Assembly (NCBI GenBank): GCA_015063745.1
Contig: SVTO01000021.1
Location: forward strand, 1 to 43,963
Direction: 5' to 3'
Origin: Oscillospiraceae bacterium
GTDB lineage: Bacteria; Bacillota; Clostridia; Oscillospirales; CAG-272
Length of the DNA: 43,963 nt
Shown here: one piece after another, positions 16,232-31,700 of the stretch
Layout: every line of letters begins with the position of its first letter
Numbering within the stretch: position 1 is the first letter of the stretch
Made by a program: the position numbers and the translations under genes
The notes under the pieces: generated by a model
What the model saw: the letters and a program-made list of their open reading frames with translations, nothing else
Told to the model about the DNA's origin: nothing
The model's database searches: none

Positions 16232-17506
16232 TTAATTATAAATAAACTCGTTGATCCGCGCCGCCGCTTCACCGATATCAAAGGAAATGATCGCCATTCC
16301 GTTGTACCAGCCAAACTGATACGCATCGGTATAAGGAACATTCTGGGATTCTACCGTCAGCTTGGAAGCATTTCCCACAACGGAGGTTGCCAGTCCCACC
16401 AGATCCGTGGCGGAAATATTGGTCTTGATCAGAGAGAAGGAGTAATCCACAATATCGTAAATCTCCGCCGCCGTTTTATTGGTCAGAATCTGCTGGATCA
16501 TGGCCATAATGGTATCCCTCTGCCGCTGGGTACGACCGAAGTCATTGCCGATGGTACGGTTTCTCATATGTGTCATAGCTAAGTTACTGTCCAGATGATT
16601 CATCCCGGGCGCAATGGTCTTTCCCGTGTAGAGACTGTATAACTCCGCCTCTTCCTTGGTCAGATATACATCTACACCACCGATATAATCAATGAAATTG
16701 TTCGCACCGTTCAGATCGATGACTACAAATTCCTGAATATCCATACCGTACAGCTGATTCACCGTGTTGATCGCCAGACCCACACCGCCGAAGAAATACG
16801 CCGTATTGATCCGGTTCCAGCCATGTCCTTCAATGGGCACCAGCGAATCTCTCAGCAGGGAAGTGAGCTTCACGGAACCGGTTTTGGCATTGTAGGAAAC
16901 AATAATCATAGTATCGCTTCTGCCCCGGTCCATCGTAACATCCCGTGTGTCCGTACCCATAACCAGAATATTCTTAACATCGGGATCCTTCTGCGTCACC
17001 TTGTAAATCGGCGTCTTGCCGTATACGCTGACCGCATTGGGAGAGTTGGCAAAGGAAGCATCACGGTTGGGCTCAGGCACATTGACGGGCGCAGAGGGCG
17101 TGGGATTGACAACGGAAGCAATCGTTTCCGGGGGATCGTAACTGATCTCAACGGTTTCAAAGGCTGTCTCCGTCTCGGGTGCTTCCGTTTCCGTTTCGGC
17201 AGGCTCGGTTTCCGGCGCCGCGGTTTCCGTCTCAACCTCCGTCTCAACATCTGTCTCCGCCTCTGTTTCATCCACACCTTCCTGCCACTTGCCTTCGGTG
17301 TCGATCACAACATCGGGATACGCCGGCATGATATATTCGCTTTCCCGTTCCACCGGGGGCTGATACGTATACGAATTCTGCTGATAACGTACCACCAGAC
17401 TGAGGATAAGCACCGCAGCAGCAGCCAAAACCGCCAGCAGCAGAACCAGAATCGCCGTAAGAATGATCCGTTTCGCACTCCATTTTTTCTTTCTGTCGCT
17501 TTTCAT
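16232..17506 (-). CDS. LytR-CpsA-Psr (LCP) family glycopolymer ligase
   Basis: LCP proteins transfer undecaprenyl-linked glycopolymers onto peptidoglycan or other acceptors outside the membrane. The 424-residue product has a short basic N-terminus, a membrane helix (~14-38), a long Glu/Thr/Pro-rich linker (~85-130) made of TETE-type repeats, and an LCP catalytic domain (~178-400). Conserved elements include ILVMGTDTRD, GRSDTMIIVS, SLLRDSLVPI, the arginine-bearing HMRNRTIGNDFGRTQRQR and the INTVNQLYGMDI segment. AGGAGTATGAC precedes the start. It is the last gene of the leftward operon, nine bases after the nucleotidyltransferase. It likely anchors the polysaccharide made under control of this operon. 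Confidence 0.92.
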   Translation of the reverse strand: MKSDRKKKWSAKRIILTAILVLLLAVLAAAAVLILSLVVRYQQNSYTYQPPVERESEYIMPAYPDVVIDTEGKWQEGVDETEAETDVETEVETETAAPETEPAETETEAPETETAFETVEISYDPPETIASVVNPTPSAPVNVPEPNRDASFANSPNAVSVYGKTPIYKVTQKDPDVKNILVMGTDTRDVTMDRGRSDTMIIVSYNAKTGSVKLTSLLRDSLVPIEGHGWNRINTAYFFGGVGLAINTVNQLYGMDIQEFVVIDLNGANNFIDYIGGVDVYLTKEEAELYSLYTGKTIAPGMNHLDSNLAMTHMRNRTIGNDFGRTQRQRDTIMAMIQQILTNKTAAEIYDIVDYSFSLIKTNISATDLVGLATSVVGNASKLTVESQNVPYTDAYQFGWYNGMAIISFDIGEAAARINEFIYN

Positions 17507-17515
17507 GTCATACTC

Positions 17516-18715
17516 CTAAGATTTCAAACCAAGCTCCGTGAGCATCCCGCGGAAAACATCCTGCTCCTCCGCCGTCAGCGCACTGTTGTATTTCCATTCT
17601 TCCGCAATCCGTTTTGCCGTGTTTTTCGACAGCAGCCTGCACCACCGTCTCACATAGCAAACGGGCAGAAGCATTTTATGTCTCTGCAGTACCGGATATT
17701 CATATTTCATCCGGTCAAAAGGCGGAAACAGCCGGGATTTCAGATAAGATCCCCGGTCCGTATTCTCCAGCCGATTCAGCTTCAGCTTGTTTTCCACAGA
17801 ACCGTAAATCCCGCCGGAAAGAATGTATTCCTCCATCATCCCCATCAGCACCCGGTCCTCCGGATCACAGTCCACCCCGGAAAACCACATTTCCGCAAGC
17901 ACACAAGCCTTGTCGGCAAAGCGGAGAATCCCGCCTTCCGTCAGCAGCCCCTCTGCTTCACCGGGATCAAATTCGGGAATACGATGCCGGAAAACCCAGA
18001 GATCCAGAAACGTCCGTATCCCACAGCCGCCGTAAAGATAATGCTTGACCATATGGGCAATGTGGTAAAAATACGCAAACGGCATGGACATCACAAATCG
18101 GTGAGGATTACCGTCAGCCGGTACCGCATCTTCCCAGACCCCGGAAAGAACCGCGGCAATCTGCGGATAATCCTTCTCGTCGATCAGCGTGAAATGCAGC
18201 TCCAGAAAAACACCCGTGGGGGAAGAAAACTGCACATCATGCCCGCCTTCTCTGACTTTGGTATACCCGAGCGTATCCGTCAGCGCCAATTCCGCCGCTG
18301 CCAGATCATCGGGGGACACCAGTATATCCACATCACAGCTGGTCCGCATATCGGGAGCGGGATAAAAGGCCCGGATAAACGCACCCTTCAATAAAATATG
18401 ATCGATCCCAACCTCTCCGAACAGCGCGGAGACAGCCTCGGTTTCGTGGGCGATCTGCTCATACCGATATACCGCCTGAAACCGTATTCTTTTCAGGGAA
18501 GCAAAAACCTCGTCGGAAATCCGCGGACGCATCCGGCATAGAAAAGCCGCGGGAATATGTCCGAGATCCTGTGAAGCCGCCGAGGAAAGAATCTCCCGCG
18601 TGTTTTCCGGCGAAAGAAGAGACGTAAGCTCGTCCGGCGAGAACACCGCCTCGGGAGAAAGCTGACCGATTTCCGCCCGGATACAGCGAATCAGCAGATT
18701 CGATACAGATTGCAT
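17516..18715 (-). CDS. NTP_transf_5-type nucleotidyltransferase
   Basis: The 399-residue product resembles the NTP_transf_5 group of the polymerase-beta nucleotidyltransferase superfamily. ILLKGAFIRAFYP near residue 105 supplies the KG motif, and MRTSCDVDILV near 125-132 supplies the metal-binding DxD. A conserved HYLYGGCGIRTFLDLWVF follows. These proteins are of unknown function but recur beside PqqD-like, HPr-kinase-like and polysaccharide genes; relatives tailor some lasso peptides. AAGAAGG lies ahead of the start. The neighbours are the S26-type peptidase upstream and the LCP gene downstream in one operon. The chemistry could be nucleotide, sugar or phosphate transfer, and the sequence does not decide which. 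Confidence 0.82.
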   Translation of the reverse strand: MQSVSNLLIRCIRAEIGQLSPEAVFSPDELTSLLSPENTREILSSAASQDLGHIPAAFLCRMRPRISDEVFASLKRIRFQAVYRYEQIAHETEAVSALFGEVGIDHILLKGAFIRAFYPAPDMRTSCDVDILVSPDDLAAAELALTDTLGYTKVREGGHDVQFSSPTGVFLELHFTLIDEKDYPQIAAVLSGVWEDAVPADGNPHRFVMSMPFAYFYHIAHMVKHYLYGGCGIRTFLDLWVFRHRIPEFDPGEAEGLLTEGGILRFADKACVLAEMWFSGVDCDPEDRVLMGMMEEYILSGGIYGSVENKLKLNRLENTDRGSYLKSRLFPPFDRMKYEYPVLQRHKMLLPVCYVRRWCRLLSKNTAKRIAEEWKYNSALTAEEQDVFRGMLTELGLKS

Positions 18716-18737
18716 AATAAACCTTCTTTATCGTGAA

Positions 18738-19205
18738 TTACCGTCCGAAGGGATGCCGCAGAAAGGACACCACCCGAAAAATAAAAGGACGTACAGGACG
18801 TGTCGGATACCAAAGCGCATCCCGCAGACGCAGGAGAAAACCGTCGGGATTTTTCACTTTCCCGTCCCGGACGATCCCGCGCACCACCGCGGCAGCCTGG
18901 AACGGCATGACCACCTCACACCAGTTTTGGGCATCCCCGTTGACCAGAATCCTGCCGTCGGGCCAGATTTTGCGGATCCGGTGGAGAATAAACATCCCAT
19001 TGGCACGGCGGAAAAAGAGAATCTGTCCTCTCTTCAGCTTATCTGCCTTCTGCAGCAGTACAGTATCCCGTCCGTCACGCAGAAAAGGAAGCATACTGGA
19101 GCCTGTCACAAGAAGAGGGATCTGAACCCCGTCATCCAGCAGCCGCAGCAGATCATCCCCATCCTGCAGAGCATCAAGCGTTCTTGTAAATGATGTATCA
19201 TTCAT
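18738..19205 (-). CDS. S24/S26-family signal-peptidase-like protein with Ser-His dyad
   Basis: The 155-residue protein has the signal-peptidase serine motif GSSMLPFLRDG (Ser37 or so), then KRGQILFFRR, ILHRIRKI and ILVNGDAQN. In bacterial SPase I a lysine is the general base. Here the His of ILHRI sits where ER-type/SipW-like enzymes use histidine, so a Ser/His dyad is likely. It has no N-terminal membrane anchor and no clear signal, unlike normal signal peptidases. The ribosome site is weak (GTAAGAT). It is the gene between the kinases and the nucleotidyltransferase in the polysaccharide operon. It may process a secreted or modified peptide; LexA-like S24 repressors are an alternative, but there is no DNA-binding domain. 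Confidence 0.78.
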   Translation of the reverse strand: MNDTSFTRTLDALQDGDDLLRLLDDGVQIPLLVTGSSMLPFLRDGRDTVLLQKADKLKRGQILFFRRANGMFILHRIRKIWPDGRILVNGDAQNWCEVVMPFQAAAVVRGIVRDGKVKNPDGFLLRLRDALWYPTRPVRPFIFRVVSFLRHPFGR

Positions 19206-19258
19206 ATCTTACAAAATAATGACCGGACTGCCGCATGGAAATACAGCAGTCCGAAATT

Positions 19259-20821
19259 TCAGTTTTTACTGCCGGCACGGGAAGAAGAGGAGTGCTTCTT
19301 TCTGCTTGAGAAAACACTCTTTTTCCGTGACTTGCTGCCGGATCCGTATGAGCTTCCGTACCCATATCCGTAACCGTACCCATAACCATATCCGTAACCG
19401 TATCCATAACGACCGTAATGACTGCCGTAGCCGTAACCGTAACTGCCGATACCGGTCTGCATACCGTTGAGCACACAGCCGAGGATTTCCACATCGGAGG
19501 CCTGCAGCGTATCCAGAACGGAAATGATACGGGAAGTACGGATGGAGTCGGGCTTGATAACCACCACAGCGGCATCGGCGGCCTGTGCCACAACGGCAGG
19601 CTCGGAAGTGATGCCGAGAGGAGAAGTATCCACGATAATATAATCGTAATTGGCTCTGAGCTGATTGAACAGATGGTTCAGATTGTCAATCTCCAGAAAC
19701 TTCCACATGGAGTGGGCTGAGGTGTTGAAATTCAGCACGGAAAGGGAAACGGAGGACTTGATATGCAGTCTGGAAATCTTGCCCACATTGTTGTTTTCCG
19801 TAGAAATATCATCCTTTTTCAGACCGAATCTGGTATTGACATTGGGATTTCTGATGTCCGCATCCACAATGATGACATTCTTGTTCATCATCGCCAGAGA
19901 AAGGGCCAGATTGGTGGAAACGGAGGTTTTCCCTTCGCCGGGGGCTACACTGGTGACCATAATGATCTGGTGATTTTTCGGCATATTCATCAGGGAATTG
20001 CGCAGAGCTCTGAAGGATTCCAGATACCCGTCACCGATCATGGGATTTGTCAGAATAATAGAACGGTTGATCTGCTTGTTGTACTTCTTGAAATTCACAA
20101 CGGGGAGAACACCGAGGCAGTTCTGGTTCAGCAGACTCTTGACATCTCCGGGGGAACGAACGGTCTGCCGCAGGAATGCATAAGCCAGAACCCAGATCAT
20201 TCCCAGCGCAAATCCGATAATCAGACCCTTGAGAATACCGGAACGGTACGCAAACTGATTGGCCGGAACCGTCGGAATCACAGGCTCGGTCAGAATATGT
20301 AAGTCCGTATTACCGATAACATACTGAGAAACCACGGGATAATTCCGGATTACGGACTGCAGTACATCATAAGTAACCTGAGGATCATAACCGGTAGCCG
20401 TAATGGTAAACATATTGGTGCCGGAAACGGAAGACGCGGAAAGAGAGCAGGGAAAATAGGAAAGCTCCAGATCGTTGCAGATAACATCCTGCAGAATATT
20501 GCTGCGGATAATATTGGGGAAACTGCTGGAAAGCTGCGCCGCCGCCGATCTGTCATAGGAGAAGGAGTAGGAGGTAATGCCCATATTCCCGGAGCCGACC
20601 TGCTGTGTCTGCACCGTAAAGGTCACGGAGGACTGATAAACGGGCGTGAAGTGCACATAGCTCCTGTAGAACATAACCCCGGCCACCAGAACGGCAAGAA
20701 TGACACAGACCCACCAGAACCGCAGAAAGGATTCCAGAATTCTGGAAAGATCCAGAAACTGTGCCTGACTTTGTTCCGCCTGAGGGGATTTATTTTCGTT
20801 TTCGTTGTGTACAGTATTCAT
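19259..20821 (-). CDS. Wzz/CpsC-CpsD fusion: BY-type tyrosine kinase with (Tyr-Gly)n tail
   Basis: This 520-residue protein joins a polysaccharide co-polymerase (Wzz) domain to a bacterial tyrosine kinase. Membrane helices lie near 35-55 and 193-213, with the extracellular Wzz loop between them. The cytoplasmic kinase has Walker A APGEGKTS (~291), Walker A' IIVDADIRNP (~320) and Walker B IIVDTSPLG (~393). The C-terminus is striking: 14 tyrosines, nine of them in an uninterrupted Tyr-Gly run, followed by a Ser/Lys/Arg-rich end. Such tails are the autophosphorylation sites in this family. GGTGG precedes the start. A second kinase is encoded 17 bases upstream, and the CpsB-type phosphatase of the same operon is the likely antagonist. 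Confidence 0.93.
   Translation of the reverse strand: MNTVHNENENKSPQAEQSQAQFLDLSRILESFLRFWWVCVILAVLVAGVMFYRSYVHFTPVYQSSVTFTVQTQQVGSGNMGITSYSFSYDRSAAAQLSSSFPNIIRSNILQDVICNDLELSYFPCSLSASSVSGTNMFTITATGYDPQVTYDVLQSVIRNYPVVSQYVIGNTDLHILTEPVIPTVPANQFAYRSGILKGLIIGFALGMIWVLAYAFLRQTVRSPGDVKSLLNQNCLGVLPVVNFKKYNKQINRSIILTNPMIGDGYLESFRALRNSLMNMPKNHQIIMVTSVAPGEGKTSVSTNLALSLAMMNKNVIIVDADIRNPNVNTRFGLKKDDISTENNNVGKISRLHIKSSVSLSVLNFNTSAHSMWKFLEIDNLNHLFNQLRANYDYIIVDTSPLGITSEPAVVAQAADAAVVVIKPDSIRTSRIISVLDTLQASDVEILGCVLNGMQTGIGSYGYGYGSHYGRYGYGYGYGYGYGYGYGYGSSYGSGSKSRKKSVFSSRKKHSSSSRAGSKN
19355..19408 (-). repeat. Hexamer-like repeat encoding nine Tyr-Gly units
   Basis: Fifty-four bases made of nine imperfect six-base units (TAY-GGN on the coding strand) encode the uninterrupted Tyr-Gly run at the end of the kinase. 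Short in-frame units like these can slip and change the number of phosphorylatable tyrosines without breaking the frame. Confidence 0.9.
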
Positions 20822-20838
20822 TATGAAACCACCATAGG

Positions 20839-22338
20839 TTAAGTAGATTGATCGGATGAGGTATCCTTGTGATGAGCGTACTTGCTGTAGGAATTGTAAG
20901 AGTTGTAGGAACCGTAGTAACCCTTTCTGCCGTAATGGGAACCGTAATAACCGCTTTCGTCAAAACCGAACTGACCGAGCATGGAAAATTCCTTGTGCAC
21001 ATCGTTCAGAATACAACCTGCAAAACCGTCAGAGTTCTCGGACAGGGAAAGTACCGCATCATTGACTGCAGGCGTATAAACACAATCGGTACGGACAACC
21101 AGCAGGGAACGGTCCGCCAGATGGATGAGTCCCGTTACATCAGCGGCAACGGAAAGGGGCGGCGTATCAATGATGATGAAATCGTAACAGTCCAGATTCC
21201 GCAGATAGTTGAAAATATCATTTACATGATCGGAATAGATCAAGTTGACATAATCGTTGTGGCTCTTCTTGTTCAGCCCCAGATCCAGACCGGTCTGCTT
21301 GTATGCATAGAACGGGAAACCTTCGAGAGGGGAAGTACCGTCAAGCAGAGTAGCCAGATCAGGCAGGGTGGAATCATGCAGACCGAATACCTTGTTCAGA
21401 GCAGGCTTCTTGAAGTCCATATCCAGAAGCAGAACCCTGTTGTTCCGCTGTGCCAGAGCAATGGCAATGTTGGCAGCCGTAGTGGATTTCCCTTCATTTT
21501 CTGCCAGACTGGTAATCAGGAAAACCTTTGCCTTGCCGCTGCGGCGCATATATTCGAATTTCGTAGCCAGCTTGTGATAATCCTCGGTAAACCTGAAGGA
21601 GGCGTGGGCGTTGCTGATCAGGAGAGAAGCCTTTTTGCGCAGAATTCTGTCCTTCAGAGAAAGATGGGATTTCTCATGCCCTACAATCCCGAACAGCTTG
21701 GCATCCACCTCATGCCGGAAGGTATGCTCATCCTTCACCGTATCCCGCATCACGGACAGATAAACGATCAGGAAAAGCACCACCGCCGCACAGCCAAGAA
21801 CAGCAATGTTCTGGTAGCGCAGTGAAATGTGGTTGGAAGGCGAGAGTGGGAGATTGGGAGAGCGCATGACATCAATAACGGAATCGGCGAACACGGATTC
21901 GGAAATACTGGGATAGATCTCCAGAATCGCACACAATTCATCGTAGGACATCTCCGGAGAGGAAGAAGTAACGCTGACGGTGAAAATATTGGTGTTCGGC
22001 AGAACCGAAGAGGAAACGGAGCCGTAAAAACGGTCATTTCCCAGATGATCGGCTGCATAAGTCTTCATGGTAGGCTGAACAAAAACTTCCGTAAAGATCT
22101 TGGCCATCTCCGACGAGGAACTGAGATTCGTATAGGAATAAGCCGCGGAGTTTTTCAGATTGACAAGCAGCGTAGCCGTACTCGTATACATGGGCGTATA
22201 CATACTGCCGTTCCAGATGGAGACCGACATATACCCGATCAGCGCTGCCAGCACAATAACCCAGAGATTTCTGAATACATCCCGCAGGACACTGAAGGGC
22301 TCAATATGAATACCGTATTTTTTCTGAGATTGATTCAT
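20839..22338 (-). CDS. Second Wzz/BY-type tyrosine kinase with distinct Tyr-rich tail
   Basis: This 499-residue paralogue has the same layout: Wzz-type N-terminal part with membrane helices near 25-45 and 178-198, then a kinase domain with Walker A LAENEGKSTT (~275), Walker A' LLLDMDFKKP (~300) and Walker B IIIDTPPL (~386). The Walker A uses AENEGKS instead of the common APGEGKS but keeps the lysine and Ser/Thr. Its tail (~455-490) has nine tyrosines in GYY, SYN and SYS units, unlike the Tyr-Gly run of its neighbour. GGTGG lies ahead of the start. Both copies look active, so they may form mixed complexes or control different polymers. Confidence 0.92.
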   Translation of the reverse strand: MNQSQKKYGIHIEPFSVLRDVFRNLWVIVLAALIGYMSVSIWNGSMYTPMYTSTATLLVNLKNSAAYSYTNLSSSSEMAKIFTEVFVQPTMKTYAADHLGNDRFYGSVSSSVLPNTNIFTVSVTSSSPEMSYDELCAILEIYPSISESVFADSVIDVMRSPNLPLSPSNHISLRYQNIAVLGCAAVVLFLIVYLSVMRDTVKDEHTFRHEVDAKLFGIVGHEKSHLSLKDRILRKKASLLISNAHASFRFTEDYHKLATKFEYMRRSGKAKVFLITSLAENEGKSTTAANIAIALAQRNNRVLLLDMDFKKPALNKVFGLHDSTLPDLATLLDGTSPLEGFPFYAYKQTGLDLGLNKKSHNDYVNLIYSDHVNDIFNYLRNLDCYDFIIIDTPPLSVAADVTGLIHLADRSLLVVRTDCVYTPAVNDAVLSLSENSDGFAGCILNDVHKEFSMLGQFGFDESGYYGSHYGRKGYYGSYNSYNSYSKYAHHKDTSSDQST

Positions 22339-22368
22339 AAATTTACCACCAAAAAACGAAATTGTTGC

Positions 22369-23184
22369 TTAGTCTTCCACAATAACCGTCAGAATCGCAT
22401 GACCTTTCCGGTCCGCGGAATCTGTAACACGATAATGTACCTCATACATACCGGGCGTATCCGTATCCAGATTGGTGTCCAGCTGTACATCCCAAATGAT
22501 GTCATTGCCGGAAGCATCCAGCGCGGAGAGCAGATTTGCCGCCGGATCAAAGAATTCACCGGCTCTGAGATACAGTATATAGTGCTCCAGTTCGATCACA
22601 GGGGCGGAAAGATGCATTTCCTCCACATAAACGGGAATACGGATGCTGATCATATCCCCCTTACTGTTGGTAACTTTGGCGGAGATATAATTGACGCCGG
22701 CCACATTGGAGGTGTACTCATTGGCCGTGATGATCACCTTGTCGCTGATATCCCCGTCAATGGAGTCCACAGCACCGAGAATTCTGCGGATGTTGATGTC
22801 CTGGGAGATACCGAATACCAGCGAACCGGAGAGGGTAAAGCGCGGCGGCGTGTAATCGGTGTACACAATCTTACGTGAAGCGGAAACCGCATGGTTGTCC
22901 CCATCACAGACCGCATACACGACAACGGAAACACCGGGCTCGGTGAAGCGGGAGATGGACTCAACAATAATCTTGTGGGAAATATCCCCGTCTTTTTCGT
23001 CATAAGCCGTAACACCTTCCAGCAGATCCGCATCGGTTGCCAAAATGGAAACGTTCAGCACATTATTTTCAATGGAAATAACCGGATAGGATTGGTCCGC
23101 ACCGCTCTGCTGGTACCAGAAAAAACAGAACAGAAACAGAATAACCACAAATAGGGAAGAAACAGTGATACGAAGGATCCTCAT
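22369..23184 (-). CDS. Membrane-anchored protein with DUF5011/cadherin-like Ig domains
   Basis: The 271-residue product has an N-terminal membrane helix (MRILRITVSSLFVVILFLF) followed by at least three extracellular Ig-like repeats. They carry hallmarks such as TAYDEKDGDISHKI, AVDSIDGDISDKV and YTDYTPPRFTL, characteristic of DUF5011-type domains. I place the start at 23184, where AGGAG lies nine bases ahead; the frame is open far upstream, but that part overlaps the phosphatase gene. It sits between the phosphatase and the kinases in the operon and probably contacts the polymer or cell wall outside the cell. No catalytic motif is visible. Confidence 0.8.
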   Translation of the reverse strand: MRILRITVSSLFVVILFLFCFFWYQQSGADQSYPVISIENNVLNVSILATDADLLEGVTAYDEKDGDISHKIIVESISRFTEPGVSVVVYAVCDGDNHAVSASRKIVYTDYTPPRFTLSGSLVFGISQDINIRRILGAVDSIDGDISDKVIITANEYTSNVAGVNYISAKVTNSKGDMISIRIPVYVEEMHLSAPVIELEHYILYLRAGEFFDPAANLLSALDASGNDIIWDVQLDTNLDTDTPGMYEVHYRVTDSADRKGHAILTVIVED

Positions 23185-23233
23185 GTCAGAAAACTCCTGA
23201 AAAAAATACAAAAAATCGCAAAAAAACGAAAAA

Positions 23234-23977
23234 TCAGGTACCGAAGGGATGAATGACCTGATTGCGGAGCACACAAAGGGGATTGGTACTGAACAGATAA
23301 TCCGCATAAGTATGGGAAAAATGCAGACTGATATACTCATGTACATCCTGCATGGGCGGCGTACGTCTGTAGGGACTGTGGGCATCGCTGGCCACAAAAT
23401 CCGCCAGCCGTTCCTCCAGCATGAATCCGGCAATCTGCTGCACATCATATCCGAAAGCGCCTTTGATGCTTCCTTTGTTGATCTGCAGAAGCGCACCTGC
23501 CTGCTTCAGACTGTGGAGAACTCCGTAATCCTCCCAGACAAACTCATACCGTTCCGGATGGGCAACGATCGGCACAAACCCGGCGGCACGAAGCGCATCC
23601 AGCGCCGCAAACACCACCCCGATGTCCTCATAGGGATCAAATTCCACCAGAGGATATACGGATTGATTGAGCGTCAGAAACTCACCCGCCTCCAGGGCTT
23701 TTACAGCATAGGAGAACTGATGATCCAGAAAAATCTCCTGTCCGAGTGCCAGCTTCAGCCGCTTTTCATCAGCCGCAGCAAAAGCGGATATCCTCCGGAA
23801 AACACCGACCAGATCTTCCTTGGTATACGGACGGGACGGCAAACAGTGGGGGGTACAGATGATCCCGCCCGTATTGTGAGCCGCCGCGATCTCCAACATC
23901 TGCATGGTTTCGGTTTCGGAGAACGCACCGTCATCCAGACCGGGCAGAATATGGCAGTGAATATCGTAATATAACAT
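23234..23977 (-). CDS. CpsB/CapC-type manganese-dependent tyrosine phosphatase (PHP domain)
   Basis: The 247-residue PHP-fold protein shows all family metal motifs: DIHCHILPGLDDG (5-17), ICTPH, the region around GQEIFLD, VAHPERYEF and VASDAHS. CpsB-type enzymes remove phosphate from BY-kinase tails and so tune polysaccharide length and export. The two kinases two genes downstream are the obvious partners. The gene begins six bases after the stop of the dehydratase gene, which means tight cotranscription. Confidence 0.94.
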   Translation of the reverse strand: MLYYDIHCHILPGLDDGAFSETETMQMLEIAAAHNTGGIICTPHCLPSRPYTKEDLVGVFRRISAFAAADEKRLKLALGQEIFLDHQFSYAVKALEAGEFLTLNQSVYPLVEFDPYEDIGVVFAALDALRAAGFVPIVAHPERYEFVWEDYGVLHSLKQAGALLQINKGSIKGAFGYDVQQIAGFMLEERLADFVASDAHSPYRRTPPMQDVHEYISLHFSHTYADYLFSTNPLCVLRNQVIHPFGT

Positions 23978-23983
23978 GATACC

Positions 23984-25882
23984 TCAGTTCTCGGCAGTAC
24001 CGGCAGGTACATCGTTTTGGGGAACACGGCGGAAAGTGGGAACGATTTCCATCAGTGCCTTTTCCACCGCTTCCGGCGTTACCGCGGGATCCTCTACCAG
24101 TGTCCGGAGATCTTCCAGCTGTTTTTCGAAAACGGGCGGATCGAGAGGGATATTTTTGCCGATAAAAATTTTCTTGTTGGGAGTCTTGTTCAGACCTTCC
24201 TCCCGCATCAGAAGCTCTTCATACAGCTTCTCGCCGGGACGAAGACCGGTGTAACGGATGTTGATATCCTGTCCCAGCGTAAGACCCGCCAGACGGATCA
24301 TGTTTTTGGCCAGATCATCAATCTTAACCGCTTCTCCCATATCCAGTACAAAGGTCTCACCGCCGCCTGCCATTGCACCGGCGGTAAGAACGAGCTGGCT
24401 GGCTTCGGAAATGGTCATGAAGTAGCGGATAATGTCGGGATGGGTAACCGTAACATCCTGTCTGTTGGCAATCTGCTTTTTGAACAGAGGAATGACGGAA
24501 CCGTTGGAACCGAGCACATTTCCGAACCGTACAGCGGTAAAACGGGTAGTGTCGGAAAGACTTGCGGCGTACTGAATAATCATTTCGCAGATACGCTTGG
24601 TAGCCCCCATAATATTGGTGGGGTTGACCGCCTTGTCGGTGGAAATCAGAACCATAACCTGCACACCGGCATTCTTGGCAGCCATAACCGTGTTGAGGGT
24701 ACCGAAGACATTGTTCTTGACCGCTTCAGCCGGCACCTGCTCCATCAGAGGCACATGCTTGTGGGCAGCAGCATGAACAACAATCTCAGGCTTTTCTTTG
24801 GCAAAAACAGCATTGAGCTGATTCATATCGCAAACTGTGGTGATGTATACTTCAATATCGAGCGCATCACCATACTTACCGATCAACTCCTGTTGAATAT
24901 CGTAAGCGTTATTTTCGTAAACATCTACCAGCACAAGCCGTTCGGGATGACAGGCCGCAACCTGACGGCAGATCTCGGAACCGATGGAACCGCCGCCGCC
25001 GGTAATAAGCACCCGCTTGCCGCTGATGAATTCAGTGACATGATTGTCGGCAACCTCCATAGGCTCACGGCTGAGCAGTTCTTCGGGTGTGATGTTGCGC
25101 AGACTGGAGATCAGATTATTTTTATCATGAATATCCGGAATCACGGGAAGGGTCTTGACAATACAAGAAGTCTTGAGACATTCGGCCAACACTTCGGAAC
25201 GTCTGTCCTGGGACAGGGAAGGGATGGCCAGATAAATCACATCGATCTGTTCGCTTGCACAGATGGTAACAATATCGGAAAGACGACCGAGTACCCGGAT
25301 ACCGTGAAGCGTACGACGGATTTTCTGATTGGAGTCATCCACAAAACCGATAGGCTTAAGCTTGCAGTCACGGCTGGACTGAATTTCCTCCAGCAGTCTG
25401 GAACCAGCGGAACCGGCACCAATGATCAGAAGCCGCTTGGCATCAGCTGCATAGGTAGGCGTAGTCTTCTGCAGACAGATTTCCCGGTATACAATACGTG
25501 AGAGGACAATCAGCGTCAGCAGGATCAGAAGGCAGAAAATATAACTGGCAGTTGGCATATCATTGCGGAAAAGGAAAACAGAAATACCGTAGGATATGAT
25601 CCCCGCAAACAGATGAACAGCAGTGATGTAGAGATACTCATAGCTGCCTGCATAACGCCAGATGATGTTATTGACTCTGAGCAGCAGCGAGAAGATTGTA
25701 TGTACAGCAAGTGTAAAGAGTATTTCCACCATCAGCATCAGAAGATTGTAGGGTGCATGATAAGTGAGTATATGACAACCGAAGGAGAAAGTACAGGCGA
25801 AAAGAATGATCAGAGAATCGACCATATGGAGAAAGATCTTACGTTTTGGCGGTTTCTGATTGCTGTAAAAATGTGTGTTCAT
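23984..25882 (-). CDS. CapD/FlaA1-type membrane nucleotide-sugar 4,6-dehydratase/epimerase
   Basis: The 632-residue protein has four N-terminal membrane helices, a first Rossmann domain with IIGAGSAGSRLL (~157-168), and a second, catalytic SDR domain with VLITGGGGSIGSE (~290-302) and the active site STDKAVNPTNIMGATKR (~412-430). Met replaces the usual catalytic Tyr, as in WbpM-type UDP-GlcNAc 4,6-dehydratases. It likely makes the first deoxy-sugar intermediate of the polysaccharide. I chose the start at 25882: the promoter's -10 box lies at 25974-25979, so an in-frame ATG at 25963 would leave almost no leader. The ribosome site at 25882 is weak (GGGAAC). It is the first gene of the leftward operon. 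Confidence 0.92.
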   Translation of the reverse strand: MNTHFYSNQKPPKRKIFLHMVDSLIILFACTFSFGCHILTYHAPYNLLMLMVEILFTLAVHTIFSLLLRVNNIIWRYAGSYEYLYITAVHLFAGIISYGISVFLFRNDMPTASYIFCLLILLTLIVLSRIVYREICLQKTTPTYAADAKRLLIIGAGSAGSRLLEEIQSSRDCKLKPIGFVDDSNQKIRRTLHGIRVLGRLSDIVTICASEQIDVIYLAIPSLSQDRRSEVLAECLKTSCIVKTLPVIPDIHDKNNLISSLRNITPEELLSREPMEVADNHVTEFISGKRVLITGGGGSIGSEICRQVAACHPERLVLVDVYENNAYDIQQELIGKYGDALDIEVYITTVCDMNQLNAVFAKEKPEIVVHAAAHKHVPLMEQVPAEAVKNNVFGTLNTVMAAKNAGVQVMVLISTDKAVNPTNIMGATKRICEMIIQYAASLSDTTRFTAVRFGNVLGSNGSVIPLFKKQIANRQDVTVTHPDIIRYFMTISEASQLVLTAGAMAGGGETFVLDMGEAVKIDDLAKNMIRLAGLTLGQDINIRYTGLRPGEKLYEELLMREEGLNKTPNKKIFIGKNIPLDPPVFEKQLEDLRTLVEDPAVTPEAVEKALMEIVPTFRRVPQNDVPAGTAEN

Positions 25883-25973
25883 GAAGAGTTCCCATATCCC
25901 ATATTTGTAAATAGATTTTGAATATTTTTGCAAATTATACCGGTGAATGCTACTGTTAGACATTATCCTACAT

Positions 25974-26002
25974 ATTATACCATAACACATGTAGTTTGTC
26001 AA
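25974..26002 (-). promoter_or_regulatory. Consensus sigma-A promoter of the polysaccharide operon
   Basis: Read leftward, TTGACA (25997-26002), exactly 17 bases and TATAAT (25974-25979): both boxes are perfect. The leader to the chosen start is about 85 bases. The divergent promoter begins 170 bases to the right; in between I see no gene or clear hairpin. Confidence 0.9.
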
Positions 26003-26172
26003 TAAATACGGTGTGAATATGCAGTATTCCCGACCATCAAAGTTGAAAAAATCTGCCATTTGCAAGAAGTTCCGGTTGTACCTGATAATTCCGTGATACA
26101 GTTTTGGAATATCAGAGAAAACTGCCTAATAAAGCCTTGCACAATTTTCGGATCGAGAGGGATTTCTCACTC

Positions 26173-26201
26173 TTGCATTTTTATGAACAATATGCTATAC
26201 T
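26173..26201 (+). promoter_or_regulatory. Sigma-A promoter of the HprK-like/radical SAM/PqqD operon
   Basis: TTGCAT (26173-26178), 17 bases and TATACT (26196-26201) lie about 80 bases before the first ATG. The region between this and the divergent promoter is a natural place for shared control. Confidence 0.8.
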
Positions 26202-26208
26202 ACTAACA

Positions 26209-26259
26209 ACGGATATAAATCCTCTTATTCCGACTCGGGTAAAACGGATCAATATCCGT
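26209..26259 (+). promoter_or_regulatory. Structured leader hairpin upstream of the HprK-like gene
   Basis: ACGGATAT (26209-26216) and ATATCCGT (26252-26259) are perfect complements. Inside them, after a symmetric two-base internal loop, ATCC pairs with GGAT, and a CCG/CGG mini-stem sits in the loop. The element starts at about the transcription start and ends 21 bases before the ATG, just ahead of the GGAG site. It could be an RNA control element or a DNA operator. It matches no riboswitch class I recognise. Confidence 0.6.
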
Positions 26260-26280
26260 AAACTATAACGGAGATCATAA

Positions 26281-27036
26281 ATGTATCAGCAGATATATAC
26301 CTTCGGCGGTGTTCGTTTTGCAATATTATCCGAACACCCACTTGTGATCCTGCCGAAATTTGAAGCATTCCGTGCCGAAGACAATTCGCCTTGCGATTAT
26401 ACATTGAAAGTCGTTTGTTCAGAGAATTCCGAAGCCTCCAGGGTTACAGCCGACCGGCACGAGAATACCTTTACCGTGTATGTCCCGGAGCAGTACCTTG
26501 ACAGCATCGGACTTCGCAGTATCTTCAACGGAGTCAATGCAGCAAACCTGTTTCTGGAACACGACGGTTTTGTTCTCCATGCTTCCTATATTCTTTGGAA
26601 CGGCAGCGCGATTCTGTTCACTGCACCGAGCGGAACGGGAAAATCCACCCAGGCAGAATTCTGGAAAAACGAACGCGGTGCAGAAATCATCAATGGTGAC
26701 AGAGTCCTGATTACCAGGCGAAACGGTTCTTTTTTTGCAAACGGTGTTTTCGTATCCGGTACCTCCGGTATATGTCGTAACGAAACCGCACCTATAAAAC
26801 AGATCGTGTATCTGGAACAAGGAGAGGAAAATGAGCTTGTTACACTGCCGCCCCACCAGTTGTTTCTGAGGCTGCTTTGCCAGTGTACCTTCGATACGAA
26901 ATCGGAAACGCAATATGAACGGATCACAGCTCTTGTGTCCGAACTGATCAATACAGTCCCCGTGTGCTGTTACCGCTGCCGGTATCATCCGGATTCTGTG
27001 GCAGTACTGGAAAGGTTATTATGGAACAAAAAGTAA
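26281..27036 (+). CDS. HPr-kinase-like P-loop protein
   Basis: The 251-residue protein resembles the C-terminal kinase domain of HPr kinase. The sequence around LHASYILWNGSAILFTAP leads into the P-loop APSGTGKST (~114-122), followed by GAEIINGDRVLI, which aligns with the HPr kinase segment holding the catalytic aspartates; the second Asp is Arg here. HPr kinase's N-terminal domain is missing, replaced by ~85 residues of beta-rich sequence. Related HprK-like proteins accompany PqqD and radical SAM genes, and some phosphorylate lasso peptides. The genome's ptsH at 10078 lacks Ser46, so this is unlikely to be an HPr kinase for it. The radical SAM gene overlaps its end by 16 bases. Confidence 0.82.
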   Translation: MYQQIYTFGGVRFAILSEHPLVILPKFEAFRAEDNSPCDYTLKVVCSENSEASRVTADRHENTFTVYVPEQYLDSIGLRSIFNGVNAANLFLEHDGFVLHASYILWNGSAILFTAPSGTGKSTQAEFWKNERGAEIINGDRVLITRRNGSFFANGVFVSGTSGICRNETAPIKQIVYLEQGEENELVTLPPHQLFLRLLCQCTFDTKSETQYERITALVSELINTVPVCCYRCRYHPDSVAVLERLLWNKK

Positions 27037-28151
27037 AACAGAACACCGGTGTAGAACCCCTGTGGGCTCATTTTATACATAGTAAGGGTGCAGGAAAAGG
27101 ACTTCCTATCGCCGGCAATTTCGAACTGACCGCTAACTGTAATTTTCGCTGTAAAATGTGTTATGTCCACGAAGACTGCAGAGAGGGCATGCTGTCTGCG
27201 GAAGAATGGATTGCCATTGGAAAGCGTGCGGTGGAACAGGGAATGGTATTTGTACTCCTGACCGGCGGAGAACCTTTCCTGAGACCGGATTTCAAAGAGA
27301 TTTACAGCGCCCTTATCAAAATGGGTCTGCTGATTTCTATTAATACCAACGGTTCCCTGATCGACGATGATATGTTCGCATTTCTCGTAGAGAATCCGCC
27401 CATCCGTATGAATATTTCCCTGTATGCCGCCGATAACGAGGTATACAAAGAACTCTGCGGCAGAGAGGCTCTGGAAATCGTAAAAAAGAATATCATCAGA
27501 CTCCATGAAGCCGGCATATCGGTCAAGATCAACTCTTCCATCACACCGGACAATGCTTCGGAAATAGAAGCGATCTACGCATTCGGGGAAGAACACGGTA
27601 TTCCGGTTACAGCATCGACCTATATGTATCCCCCAGTGCGCATCAATGATAAAAAATACGGTTCATCCCCGGCAAGATTTACAGCGGAAGAAGCAGCCGC
27701 TTACCTGTTGAAATGCAGGGAACAGTACCTGACGCCCGATCAACTGCAGAACAGTGCAGCTCTTATCAACCCCGATGATGAGTTGTGCGACGGAGAAACC
27801 CAGGAAAATATGCGCTGCAGAGCGGGTAGAACTGCTTTCTGGATCACATGGGACGGCAGAATGCTGCCATGTGGAATGTTCCCGGATGAGGGGTATTCCG
27901 TAAGGGAAATGGGTTTTGATGCTGCCTGGGAAGCAGTAAAAGGCTATACAAAAACAATCATGATGCCGAAAGAATGTACAGCCTGCCCCAAGAAGGACCG
28001 CTGTTCCGTGTGTGCTGCATCCTGTATTTCGGAGACCGGCAGCCCGGCCATCCGACCTGACTATATCTGCAGACTTACCATGACCTACGACAAACTGCTG
28101 TACAAAAAATACCGTCCAGAGAAAAGCGAGGAATCATCCCATGAAGCTTGA
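27021..28151 (+). CDS. Radical SAM/SPASM maturase
   Basis: The 376-residue product has the 4Fe-4S motif CNFRCKMC (Cys40, Cys44, Cys47) that cleaves S-adenosylmethionine, then LLTGGEPFLRPDF and the rest of a TIM-type barrel. The C-terminal SPASM domain shows C-x12-GRMLPC and CTACPKKDRCSVCAASC, which bind one or two auxiliary clusters. Such enzymes usually modify ribosomal peptides (PqqE, thioether sactionine or AlbA types) or proteins. The start at 27021 has GGAAAGG ahead; it overlaps the kinase-like gene by 16 bases, and PqqD overlaps its end by 11 bases, so translation is coupled. No precursor peptide is evident. Confidence 0.93.
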   Translation: MEQKVKQNTGVEPLWAHFIHSKGAGKGLPIAGNFELTANCNFRCKMCYVHEDCREGMLSAEEWIAIGKRAVEQGMVFVLLTGGEPFLRPDFKEIYSALIKMGLLISINTNGSLIDDDMFAFLVENPPIRMNISLYAADNEVYKELCGREALEIVKKNIIRLHEAGISVKINSSITPDNASEIEAIYAFGEEHGIPVTASTYMYPPVRINDKKYGSSPARFTAEEAAAYLLKCREQYLTPDQLQNSAALINPDDELCDGETQENMRCRAGRTAFWITWDGRMLPCGMFPDEGYSVREMGFDAAWEAVKGYTKTIMMPKECTACPKKDRCSVCAASCISETGSPAIRPDYICRLTMTYDKLLYKKYRPEKSEESSHEA

Positions 28152-28407
28152 TGAAAACATAATCGTAAGAGAAATCGCCGGTGAATACATCCTGATCCCG
28201 ACCGGCAGTTCCGCCCTGAAAATGACGGGTATTTTCGCCATTACGGAAGTAGGCGCCGAAATCTGGAAAAAACTGTCCGAAGGCAAGGAAGAGGATACCA
28301 TCATCGCCGAACTTCTTGAAGATTACGATGTGACCGAAGAACAACTCCGTACTGATTATGCGGAATTTCTGTCCCGTCTTGAAGAAAACGGACTTTTGGA
28401 AAGATAG
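28141..28407 (+). CDS. PqqD-family peptide carrier (RiPP recognition element)
   Basis: The 88-residue protein has the winged-helix PqqD pattern: MKLDENIIVREIAGEYILIP, then LKMTGIFAITEVGAEIWKKL and two C-terminal helices. PqqD-type domains bind the leader of a precursor peptide and present it to a radical SAM enzyme. The start overlaps the radical SAM stop (ATGAAGCTTGA), indicating coupled translation and equal expression. It is the last gene before a terminator. Standing free, not fused, it fits a partner of the SPASM enzyme just upstream. Confidence 0.9.
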   Translation: MKLDENIIVREIAGEYILIPTGSSALKMTGIFAITEVGAEIWKKLSEGKEEDTIIAELLEDYDVTEEQLRTDYAEFLSRLEENGLLER

Positions 28408-28708: not shown

Positions 28709-31700
28709 ATGTTCCAAACATTCAGAAAATCCACAGCATGGCTGCTTACCATCGCCATGCTCATCGGTATGTTACCGTCTTTCGCCGGCATCGTAATGGC
28801 GGCAGAAGATAAAATAGAAGAACATACCGTCGTAACCGAATCCGCAGCACCGGAAACGGACCTGCCGGATAATGATGCCCTCTTCGCAGGGTACGCAGAA
28901 CGCCTGTTTAATCCCTACGGCGGCGTGTCGTTCTTCGGAATCGCAGCAGGTTCCCGACTGACCGGCACGGAAAAAGCCGTGTACGATGCACTTGTACCGA
29001 TTATCAAAAAGATCGCAAGCGGCGAACGTGCATCCACCCACATCGGCCTCGGTCAGGATATTACCTATGACGGAAAAAACTATACTGCCGATGTAGCCAT
29101 GAGCTTTACCGGATCTTCTTTCCCGCAGAGTTCTCTGAACGCTGTAACAAGCGCTTTGCTGGCAGACTACCCCTACGAAATGTACTGGTACGATAAGACG
29201 ACCGGTGTTTCGATGTGGTATGTTACCAGCGGCGGCAATATCGCGCATCTTTATTTTGAATTCACCGTAGCCGGCCAGTACCGCGGAGGAAATGCCTATA
29301 CCGCCGATACCGCAAAGACCGGTATTGCCAAAACAGCGGCAGCCAAGGCTATGGATATCGTAAACAAATACGCCTCCAAATCCGACTACGATAAACTGCT
29401 CGGGTATAAGAACGAGATCTGCAATCTGGTAAGCTATAACCAGAGTGCGGCGGACACGGGCGATTTCAAAACCCAGTCCGACCCCTGGCAGCTGATCTAC
29501 GTATTCGACGGTGATTCCACCACCAATGTTGTCTGCGAAGGATATGCCAAAGCCTTCCAGTACCTCTGTGACCTGACCTCCTGGAACAGCAGCAAGATCA
29601 TGTGCTATAATGTTTCCGGATACATGGTAGGCGGAACCGGTGCCGGACGTCATATGTGGAACATCGTAACCATGGACGACGGCAAGAATTATATTGTTGA
29701 CGTAACCAACTGCGATACCGGCTCCATCGGCGCCCCCGATAAGCTGTTTGTTGCCCACGCATCCGCAACCACCGGTGAGTTCACCGAAACCGATTCCTAC
29801 GGCAACAAGAAAACGGTAACCAAGAACGGTTATGCCGTAGCAGCGGGCAGTAATACCGTGAAATTTTTCTATGACGATGATATGTACGATATCTGGGGAA
29901 GCGATGCCTCCTCCATTCTGAACATTTCCTCCACCGCATACGGAAGTGTTGCCGTACATACCCATAATACCAACGGTACCGTAACCTATACCTATAAGGA
30001 TGGTGCAGCGCACATCAAAAAGACTGCATGCAAGGATTGTCCCGACAATTATGTAACCGAGACAACCGAAAGCCATACCGGCGGTACCGCAACCTGTGCA
30101 AGCGGCCCCGTATGTGAAAAGTGCGGCAATGCTTACGGAGAAGCCGATACAACAGCCCATGTATGGACTTACACCGCCTCCGGTGCATCCATTACCGCGG
30201 ACTGCAGCAACGCCGGCTGTGACGAAACCGGTACCATCACCCTGAAGGCACCCGCATCCGTTGTCTACGACGGCAATGATAAGACCGTAACCACCGAAGG
30301 AACCCTCCCCGGTGTAACCGATCCTGCCATTACCTATGAAGGTGACCGAAAGAACGCAGGTACCTTTACCGCCAAGCTGACAGTCGGTACCGTGACCGCC
30401 GTCCTGGACGTAACCATCACACCCAAGACCACAACGATCACCTCCGAACCCGCGACCCCCGTTAATCTCGGCTTTATTCCTACCGCCGAAGATCAGGTGA
30501 TCGCAGTTCTTCCGACTACTGTAACCACCGCGGACGGTGCATTTGCCATTACCTGGACCTGCGTGTCCCTGAGTACCGCCCCGAACGGCGAAAGTATTTT
30601 CAGCTGGACCATCACCGATCCCGCATGGAGTAACTATACCGCCGCAAAGACAAGCGGAAACGTAACCGCAATCGGCGGCGCAGCATCCTCCGTTACCAAT
30701 ACCGGCACCAATACCACCATTACCTATAATGGCGCTCCCTTTGACGTATCCACCATGTTCACCATCGACGCCAACGCCGGTACAGCAACCTACACCATTA
30801 CAAATGGTACCGGCAGCGCGACCCTGAGCGGCAAGGAACTGACCGTAACCTCCGCCGGTACCATCACCGTAAAGCTGACCACCGCAGCAAACGGCAGCTA
30901 CGCGGCAGGAGAAGCCACCGCTGTCCTGACTGTGGAAAAGGGAACACCTTCCTATACCGTTCCCACCGGTCTGACAGCCGAATACGGCGACACTCTGGCA
31001 GATGTAACCCTCCCGACCGGCTGGACATGGAAGAATACCGCATCCTCCGTCGGCAATGCAGGCAATAATGCCTTCACCGCAGTATTCACACCTGCCAATA
31101 CCGCACTGTACAATACAGCGGAAGTTGAAGTTGCCGTAGCCGTATCTCCCAAAAATATCACAGGTGCAGCAGTCGGCAGCTTCGACCTGACCTACATCGG
31201 AGAAGCCCAGATCCCCACCGCATCCGTGACCATCGACGGCATGACAGTAACCGGTACCTGGAGCGCAGTAACCAACGTAAACGATAAGACCACCTTTACC
31301 GCATCCGGCAACTTCACCGGTACCATCGCCGATCAGACCACCGGCATGGCAAAGGCAGATCCTGTTGTAACCGCACCCACCGCAGGCGACCGTACATACG
31401 ATACTACCGAAAAGGCCCTTGCAGCAGCAGGCAGCGTAACCGGCGGTACCATGCAGTACAGCACCGCAGCGGACGGCACCTACACCACCGCCATCCCCAC
31501 CGCAGCCGATGCAGGGGAATATAAAGTGTACTACAAAGCAGTAGGCGACGCAAACCATAACGATACTGCTCCTCAGTACATCACCGTAACCATTTCTCCC
31601 AAGACCGTTACTGCCCCCACCTTCGACGGTCTGGCAGAAACCTATGCATACGATAACGGCAATCCCATCAAGCCCACCTTCACACTGAAAGACGGCGAAA

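Follow-up and report, generated by a model that had tools for sequence, protein, structure and literature searches.

HPr-kinase homologues take part in two described kinds of peptide-modifying system. In the paeninodin and pseudomycoidin lasso peptide systems (PadeK, ThcoK, PsmK, PsmN), they phosphorylate the C-terminal Ser of lasso precursors, and PsmN attaches one or two hexoses to this phosphate, possibly after nucleotidylating it (PMC8498205, PMC9266682). The linear polyphosphorylated peptide (LPP) system (LppA/K/B/S/D/N) was described in Paenibacillus alginolyticus (Nat Commun, May 2026; PMC13381572) and acts on a different Ser. Here we analyse a locus on contig SVTO01000021.1 of an uncultured, gut-type Oscillospiraceae bacterium (Clostridia; metagenome-assembled genome (MAG), 82% complete). 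The stretch analysed, called the window, covers 43,963 nt. It carries a rightward trio of genes, encoding an HprK-like kinase, a radical SAM enzyme of SPASM type and a PqqD-type free recognition element (RRE) of ribosomally synthesised and post-translationally modified peptides (RiPPs). As originally predicted, and in agreement with coordinates and family models, the trio faces a leftward polysaccharide operon that also holds an NTP_transf_5 protein and an S26-like peptidase. We consider it likely that these enzymes belong to a RiPP pathway with split genes, in which a precursor encoded on another contig (C19) of the same genome would be bound, undergo modification by the radical SAM enzyme, be phosphorylated on its last Ser and be trimmed by enzymes encoded beside capsule genes.

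The locus shares with LPP, as described in PMC13381572, an HprK-like kinase and a discrete RRE, a YxxP leader and a position in capsule loci of Bacillota. The archaeal-type signal-peptidase-like leader protease of LPP has a possible counterpart, the S26 protein, which is encoded in a separate operon, conserves Ser, His and Asp and has no match in two of the trio-bearing relatives (G037 and G053). The NTP transferase of LPP may correspond to the NTP_transf_5 protein of the window, but the latter is of a solitary clade. LPP has an MsbA-like exporter, whereas no ABC exporter was found in the window with an ABC profile; ABC exporters are present in 17 of 80 related loci. The LPP leader reads YxxPxVLxHQxIxFETxxS and its phosphorylation site is core Ser3, whereas the precursors described here have the leader consensus YxKPxIxFExFxLSxxIA, mostly at least four Cys, and a final Ser. 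The LPP product is linear and its system has no macrolactam cyclase; here, no Asn-synthase-like protein is encoded on the trio or precursor contigs, but the radical SAM enzyme may cross-link the core. Because the LPP precursor motif and the Ser3 site are absent, we did not file the system as LPP.

The likeness to the paeninodin and pseudomycoidin systems (PMC8498205, PMC9266682) lies in an HPr-kinase homologue predicted to act on a C-terminal Ser, a nucleotidyltransferase (N), a free PqqD-type protein (B1) and a Y/WxxP leader. A C-terminal Ser is found in the precursors of kinase-bearing lasso clusters and in 61 of 63 precursor open reading frames (ORFs) here. The lasso systems differ in having B2 and the cyclase, where a radical SAM enzyme is present here instead. 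Transglut_core3, which we take to be the B2 cysteine leader protease family of lasso systems, exceeded its cut-off in none of nine genomes. Matches to Asn-synthase-like proteins, presumably the lasso cyclase family, all lay on contigs without trio or precursor in these genomes. A lasso peptide was therefore rejected. Sactipeptides and ranthipeptides are similar in that their precursor is rich in Cys and is paired with a radical SAM enzyme of SPASM type, and a thioether is predicted here; the window's enzyme has no Pfam SPASM match. The SynChlorMet cassette (ScmC, ScmE, ScmF) likewise combines PqqD-like and SPASM proteins with one that is HprK-like. Among NCBIfam models, the window's kinase is matched best by ScmC (E 2.8e-5), but at 23.6 bits against a cut-off of 125. 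Collectively, the system appears to be a radical SAM variant of the LPP/paeninodin kind that works like both. If so, the phosphopeptide machinery of lasso peptides and LPP also pairs with radical SAM chemistry.

The original prediction knew of no described system with this full set of five families. Four of the five are those of the published LPP system, so the claim holds only for the radical SAM branch: the main text of PMC13381572 lacks the terms radical SAM, S26 and nucleotidyltransferase, and no description of the combination with a radical SAM enzyme was recognised among titles and abstract starts in the open-access literature. The novel elements here are the branch with the radical SAM enzyme, the precursor family that goes with it, a surface protein linked to them, and precursors that are at times encoded away from the enzymes.

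A candidate precursor family beside the trio genes

A short ORF, mostly of 78-100 aa, was found beside the trios of relatives and is the candidate precursor. Ten aligned precursors have in common MKK-Y-P, four Cys and a C-terminal Ser; across 28 precursors, Y5, P8, C27, F52, C60, C71-Y72 and S84 are invariant (numbering of the copy in the window's own genome). The precursors have no conserved Ser following the leader and conserve the C-terminal Ser instead, which is present in 61/63 precursor ORFs compared to 52/798 other ORFs. The 63 include one identical pair (62 distinct sequences, 60 with the final Ser) and one contig-end fragment, and clustering at 50% identity gave 37 clusters, two of which contain a member that does not end in Ser. 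When precursors were found with a leader-only model, the C-terminal Ser was still present in 54/57. At least four Cys occur in 56/63. No credible match was obtained for the precursor copies scanned against Pfam and NCBIfam. An orphan enzyme set thus gains a likely substrate, with a near-invariant final Ser and conserved Cys, that has no model in either database. Since the family occurs both beside trios and in the window's own genome, the original suggestion of a peptide substrate is supported.

Species genomes were scanned with a radical SAM alignment, which returned at least 593 stretches, at least 543 of them encoding relatives; the analysis used the best 80 loci, which are not all independent, as several share a MAG or appear to be relatives' contigs. 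All three trio genes are present in 63 of the 80, with HprK in 74 and PqqD in 67. The precursor was present in 61/80 loci and in 51/63 of those with the complete trio. A protein termed c6 was encoded in 56 of the 80. It was modelled confidently (predicted local distance difference test score, pLDDT, 93) as an N-terminal helix followed by β-strands, and strong hydrophobicity was seen in a stretch near the N-terminus of six c6 proteins. From the model, c6 would be a surface-anchored β-strand protein that often accompanies the set in relatives, as does the ABC exporter. The precursor family and the HprK-like, radical SAM and PqqD genes are spread across Clostridia, including many gut MAGs; cultured carriers include Pseudoflavonifractor phocaeensis An569 and Lachnoclostridium sp. 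An76.

The window itself contains no precursor: a leader-pattern search, the two intergenic gaps and the precursor profiles were all empty, and a precursor inside the window was therefore rejected. The genome has a single precursor, at C19:42996-43247, of 84 aa, which starts MKKTYVKP and has five Cys and a final Ser. Its neighbours are a c6 protein and a protein of 2571 aa that looks secreted. There is one match each for HprK, free PqqD, S26 and NTP_transf_5 in this genome, together with an additional PqqD match below cut-off in a 471-aa frame. We infer that the C19 precursor is the substrate of the window's enzymes. It was predicted that genomes without a precursor at the radical SAM locus would carry one elsewhere, and this was seen in 18 of 19. 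For comparison, a profile search found a clear copy in 8 of 118 relatives (a set that includes the window's genome; four weak matches, E 0.027-0.038, were treated as noise) and, within the class as a whole, in 3 of 391 genomes (threshold E<=1e-4, with no more than 14 candidates scored in each). Six of the places where a precursor lies elsewhere were read. Two are beside a large ORF with no enzyme genes in the stretch, two beside HprK, one belongs to a further complete cassette and the last lies where its contig ends, which suggests that true separation and broken contigs both occur. If precursor and enzymes can indeed be kept at separate sites, mining based on adjacency misses them. An apparent tRNA-like end of contig C19 was rejected, as ARAGORN gave no tRNA there.

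A secreted-looking ORF of more than 600 aa lies immediately upstream of 39 of the 61 plus-strand precursors (loci L130-L209). It is conceivable on this basis that the enzymes in truth act on these giant secreted proteins, with the short ORF serving as an adaptor. We consider this extremely improbable, since the two giants scanned are unlike (VWA in one, no Pfam match in that of the window's genome) and the short ORF bears an RRE-type leader as well as the conserved Cys and Ser, no search for a shared leader motif in the giants having been made. Some of the large ORFs end in an amphipathic stretch. The helical moment of their tails exceeds that of controls (0.47 vs 0.35, p 8e-5); a shared amphipathic tail signal was nevertheless rejected, as 5/39 passed a strict cut and the own-genome protein has no such tail by eye.

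Identities of the predicted modifying enzymes

The overlapping arrangement of the trio agrees with the original prediction. The radical SAM frame is open from a GTG at 26964, and its likely start is the ATG at 27021, giving an overlap of 16 nt with the end of hprK. A second overlap, of 11 nt, joins the end of the radical SAM gene to the pqqD ATG. These overlaps at both joints suggest that the trio is coupled. PqqD (61.2 bits, cut-off 23.4), Radical_SAM (99.6 bits, cut-off 29.5) and NTP_transf_5 (136.6 bits, cut-off 31.2) were all matched clearly. The SPASM label rests on full-length NCBIfam matches to SPASM-type proteins such as PqqE, all below cut-off, and on conserved C-terminal Cys; Pfam gave no SPASM match at E 0.01. 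In one locus (L042, 8485-9597, minus strand), the trio radical SAM protein has Tyr for the first Cys of CxxxCxxC, by error or decay.

The HprK-like protein has no Pfam match and its NCBIfam scores are all below cut-off, but its family profile matches the solved HPr kinase 1jb1 (E 1.7e-5). His100, Gly120, Lys121 and Asp140 are invariant in the family alignment, with Ser or Thr at 122. As the kinase residues of BsfK are given as H, G, K, S and D (PMC10368454), counterparts of all those listed are present.

The S26 protein was matched weakly by hidden Markov models, scoring 20.8 bits with Peptidase_S24 (cut-off 23.3) and E 6e-6 with archaeal-type signal peptidase I (likewise below cut-off), and its best solved match is SEC11A (E 0.0014). 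In a 21-row alignment, GxSMxP (Ser37), His75-Arg76 and Gly90-Asp91 are invariant. Its predicted structure (pLDDT 85) consists mainly of strands, with helices at both ends. No membrane helix was found: the highest 19-residue hydropathy is 1.06, and the predicted structure contains none, consistent with the anchorless peptidase originally described.

Co-occurrence and phylogenies of the five families

Among the 118 relatives, HprK-like proteins occur in 52, NTP_transf_5 over its cut-off in 56 and free PqqD in 58. Kinship of genomes and MAG completeness inflate all the co-occurrence values that follow. HprK and PqqD are associated by genome (Fisher 5e-20), and NTP_transf_5 is present in 42/52 genomes with HprK compared to 14/66 without (Fisher 8e-11); outside the window's genus the values are 1e-14 and 7.5e-9, respectively. 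For these counts, PqqD rows in frames of at least 400 aa (20/100), NTP_transf_5 rows below cut-off (3/78) and S26 rows with E above 1e-20 (51 kept) were dropped, and 21 BY-kinase (bacterial tyrosine kinase) rows were used. A free PqqD lies within 5 kb of HprK at 49 of 62 HprK places, on the same strand in all 49. Near the 51 strong S26 places, free PqqD was found within 3 kb in 38, HprK in 33 and NTP_transf_5 in 13. In the 80 radical SAM loci, NTP_transf_5 was found in 16, S26 in 11 and BY-kinases in 13, compared to about 0.4, about 0.2 and 0.4-2.3 expected by chance, assuming a mean genome size of 2.3 Mb and, for the BY-kinases, a rough row count. The trio and the NTP_transf_5/peptidase pair therefore do not occur independently of each other.

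All five families occur together in 5 of the 80 loci (L132, L134, L149, L153 and L188). They also lie on one contig of a genome of the same genus (G008), where the order runs from the capsule operon, which includes S26 and NTP_transf_5, through a large protein that looks secreted to the precursor, c6 and the trio. S26 and NTP_transf_5 are naturally fused in two genomes (L059, 10560-12074, 504 aa; L107, 1150-2640, about 500 aa), which parallels the B2-nucleotidyltransferase fusions reported for lasso clusters (PMC8498205).

Two kinds of cassette were distinguished. Cassette (a) is HprK - radical SAM - PqqD, usually with the precursor and c6; cassette (b) is HprK - PqqD - S26, at times with NTP_transf_5 or an ABC exporter. 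Nine (b) loci (L041, L046, L051, L054, L058, L060, L062, L071 and L072) encode a 34-54 aa peptide with YxxP (FxxP in L072), picked by pattern and by eye. These peptides have 0 or 1 Cys, one of the nine ends in Ser, and the eight scanned gave no NCBIfam match. The HprK-PqqD-S26(-NTP_transf_5) cassettes with such peptides look like clostridial LPPs. At L058 (7132-10223), the (b)-type cassette is joined by a radical SAM protein of 448 aa, which may represent a second recruitment, and in G002 a (b)-type cassette occurs with a different radical SAM protein.

In a tree of 37 HprK rows, the (a) and (b) kinases form separate groups of 27 and 8 rows (100/100), and the window's kinase falls inside the trio-linked clade of 27. 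The S26 tree, which covers part of the 51 strong places, separates 18 (b) rows from trio-linked and capsule-operon copies including that of the window (99/96). With 11 more rows the split was 100/97, five joining the trio side and six the other. The closest relative of the window's S26 in any other genus is that of L188, from a Lachnospiraceae MAG in which the genes diverge in the same way. In the NTP_transf_5 tree, built without the partial row L152, 14 of the 16 trio-linked rows cluster together (96/95), and this cluster also holds the copies of G014 and G034, both of which have precursors.

The placement of the window's own NTP_transf_5 is relevant to an alternative, in which the trio makes its own RiPP and the S26 and NTP_transf_5 proteins serve polysaccharide assembly, unrelated to the peptide. 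The pair lies 7-9 kb from the trio on the opposite strand. Solitary NTP_transf_5 genes are common, and in several of nine such loci read by eye the neighbours look like capsule or nucleotide-sugar genes; the window's copy belongs to the solitary clade. In G037 and G053, S26 gave no match although both trio and precursor are present. Two independent neighbours are nonetheless doubtful, given the HprK-NTP_transf_5 correlation within and outside the genus, the position of the window's S26 in the trio-linked clade next to L188, the five loci with all five families and the LppS precedent of a signal-peptidase-like leader protease in LPP (PMC13381572). The idea that the five genes form one system is thus in part supported by the correlations, the five-family loci and the S26 clade, but not by the NTP_transf_5 clade or by G037 and G053; certain membership of NTP_transf_5 in the trio system was rejected because its copy in the window sits in the solitary clade.

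Proposed pathway

In the split-gene pathway that we favour, the PqqD protein would bind the precursor leader via its YxKP motif and present it. The radical SAM enzyme would then alter the core, most likely at conserved Cys, giving a thioether or related cross-link, and the HprK-like kinase would phosphorylate the C-terminal Ser. As the precursor conserves both the last Ser and the Cys, phosphorylation of the former and radical SAM chemistry on the latter is the simplest reading. That the (b) peptides have almost no Cys agrees with this reading, though these peptides were picked by a different rule. The soluble S26 protease may cut off the leader about 15-17 residues past the Tyr, near the conserved Ile-Ala. 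This cut was placed near residues 20-22 from the Tyr-to-cut distances of LppA (Tyr at -16; PMC13381572) and BsfA (Tyr at -17; PMC10368454). RREs of PqqD type bind YxxP leaders and hand them over to kinase and protease: BsfB1 speeds phosphorylation (PMC10368454) and LppS cleaves only with its RRE, LppB (PMC13381572). Three ABC exporters of related loci have no peptidase domain in Pfam, which suggests that a separate leader protease is needed there. NTP_transf_5 may attach a sugar or nucleotide to the phosphate.

The links to the exporter, to c6 and, in some relatives, to the capsule-assembly module (CpsB, Ig-like, BY-kinases and LytR-CpsA-Psr (LCP)) suggest that the product probably acts at the cell surface, and the last of these makes the function of such peptides testable. 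A further proposal, which we regard as speculative and unlikely, is a separate RiPP class: a cross-linked peptide, phosphorylated on its C-terminal Ser and joined via the phosphate by NTP_transf_5 to a sugar or capsule polysaccharide, forming a peptide-glycan conjugate that c6 would help to keep at the surface. Alternatively, the modified peptide might act inside the cell, as a signal or cofactor governing capsule assembly via the BY-kinases, whose genes are enriched in the 80 loci and in L153 and L209 stand together with other capsule-module genes. This regulatory role is very unlikely, because the precursors adjoin large secreted proteins and a surface-anchored protein and the loci with ABC exporters point outward.

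Several observations weigh against the split-gene pathway. The precursor is on another contig than the trio in an incomplete MAG, so that a binning error is possible, and c6 and an ABC exporter are both missing from the window. An HprK-like kinase alone does not imply a C-terminal site, since eight of the nine (b) peptides have no final Ser and both BsfK (PMC10368454) and LppK (core Ser; PMC13381572) modify Ser3. The S26 and precursor profiles were made mostly from HprK loci, which makes the linkage partly circular. The NTP_transf_5 proteins of the window and of G008 group with ten solitary copies (100/99), outside the trio-linked clade. From the surroundings of 42 of the 62 HprK places, which were read, nine genomes have an (a)-type trio, and precursors were found in seven of the nine (G000, which is the window's genome, G008, G014, G015, G016, G037, G053, G062 and G084 being the nine); none was found in G015 (77% complete) or in G062, where the trio is at a contig end. 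G037 (96% complete) and G053 (76%) have no S26 profile match, and G034 (C19, C44; L089, L242) has precursor, S26, NTP_transf_5 and BY-kinases with no HprK match.

Gene layout of the window

Judged by their families, the genes of the leftward operon form a module for the control and assembly of capsule, comprising CapD-like, CpsB, Ig-like, two Wzz/BY-kinase, S26, NTP_transf_5 and LCP genes (Table 1). Pfam and NCBIfam identified LytR_cpsA_psr, CpsB_CapC, Wzz and tyrosine autokinase families among them, with Polysacc_synt_2 at 385.6 in the CapD-like protein, and gave no match to glycosyltransferase models in any of the eight.

Table 1. Positions of the trio, the leftward operon and its promoter match in the window
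Feature	Position	Strand	Basis or remark
HprK-like peptide kinase	26281..27036	+	His100, Walker A APSGTGKST 115-123, Asp140 in NGDR
Radical SAM enzyme, SPASM type	27021..28151	+	CxxxCxxC at 40-47, conserved C-terminal Cys
PqqD-type free RRE	28141..28407	+	Pfam/NCBIfam matches
Sigma-70 promoter match	25974..26002	-	12/12, TG before second hexamer; leftward
CapD-like nucleotide-sugar enzyme, first gene of leftward operon	23984..26065 (open frame; true start later)	-	Polysacc_synt_2
CpsB/CapC tyrosine phosphatase	23234..23977	-	family models
Ig-like surface protein	22369..23496 (open frame)	-	start probably near 23208, from 279-aa G008 orthologue
Wzz/BY-kinase fusion 2	20839..22338	-	family models
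Wzz/BY-kinase fusion 1, Tyr/Gly-rich tail	19259..20821	-	family models
Soluble S26 / archaeal-type signal-peptidase-like protease, candidate leader peptidase	18738..19205	-	Ser37, His75, Asp91
NTP_transf_5 protein, candidate phosphoserine modifier, membership uncertain	17516..18715	-	LLKG...DVD stretch
LCP glycopolymer transferase, last gene of leftward operon	16232..17506	-	family models

Divergent promoters had been proposed between the two gene sets. The leftward one is a perfect sigma-70 consensus ahead of the capsule operon; on the trio side only a weak sigma-70 match was found, nothing comparable, and the sites found numbered 3 compared to 2.5 expected by chance. Immediately 3' of the PqqD gene, at 28709-34672 on the plus strand, lies a gene for a 1987-aa protein with SLH and MBG domains; elsewhere the precursor often follows large secreted proteins, but none follows this one. 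The trio locus L209 has, by eye, an Ig-like gene of similar size to that of the window. The tail of the BY-kinase at 19259-20821 is a long Tyr-Gly repeat (GYGYGYG).

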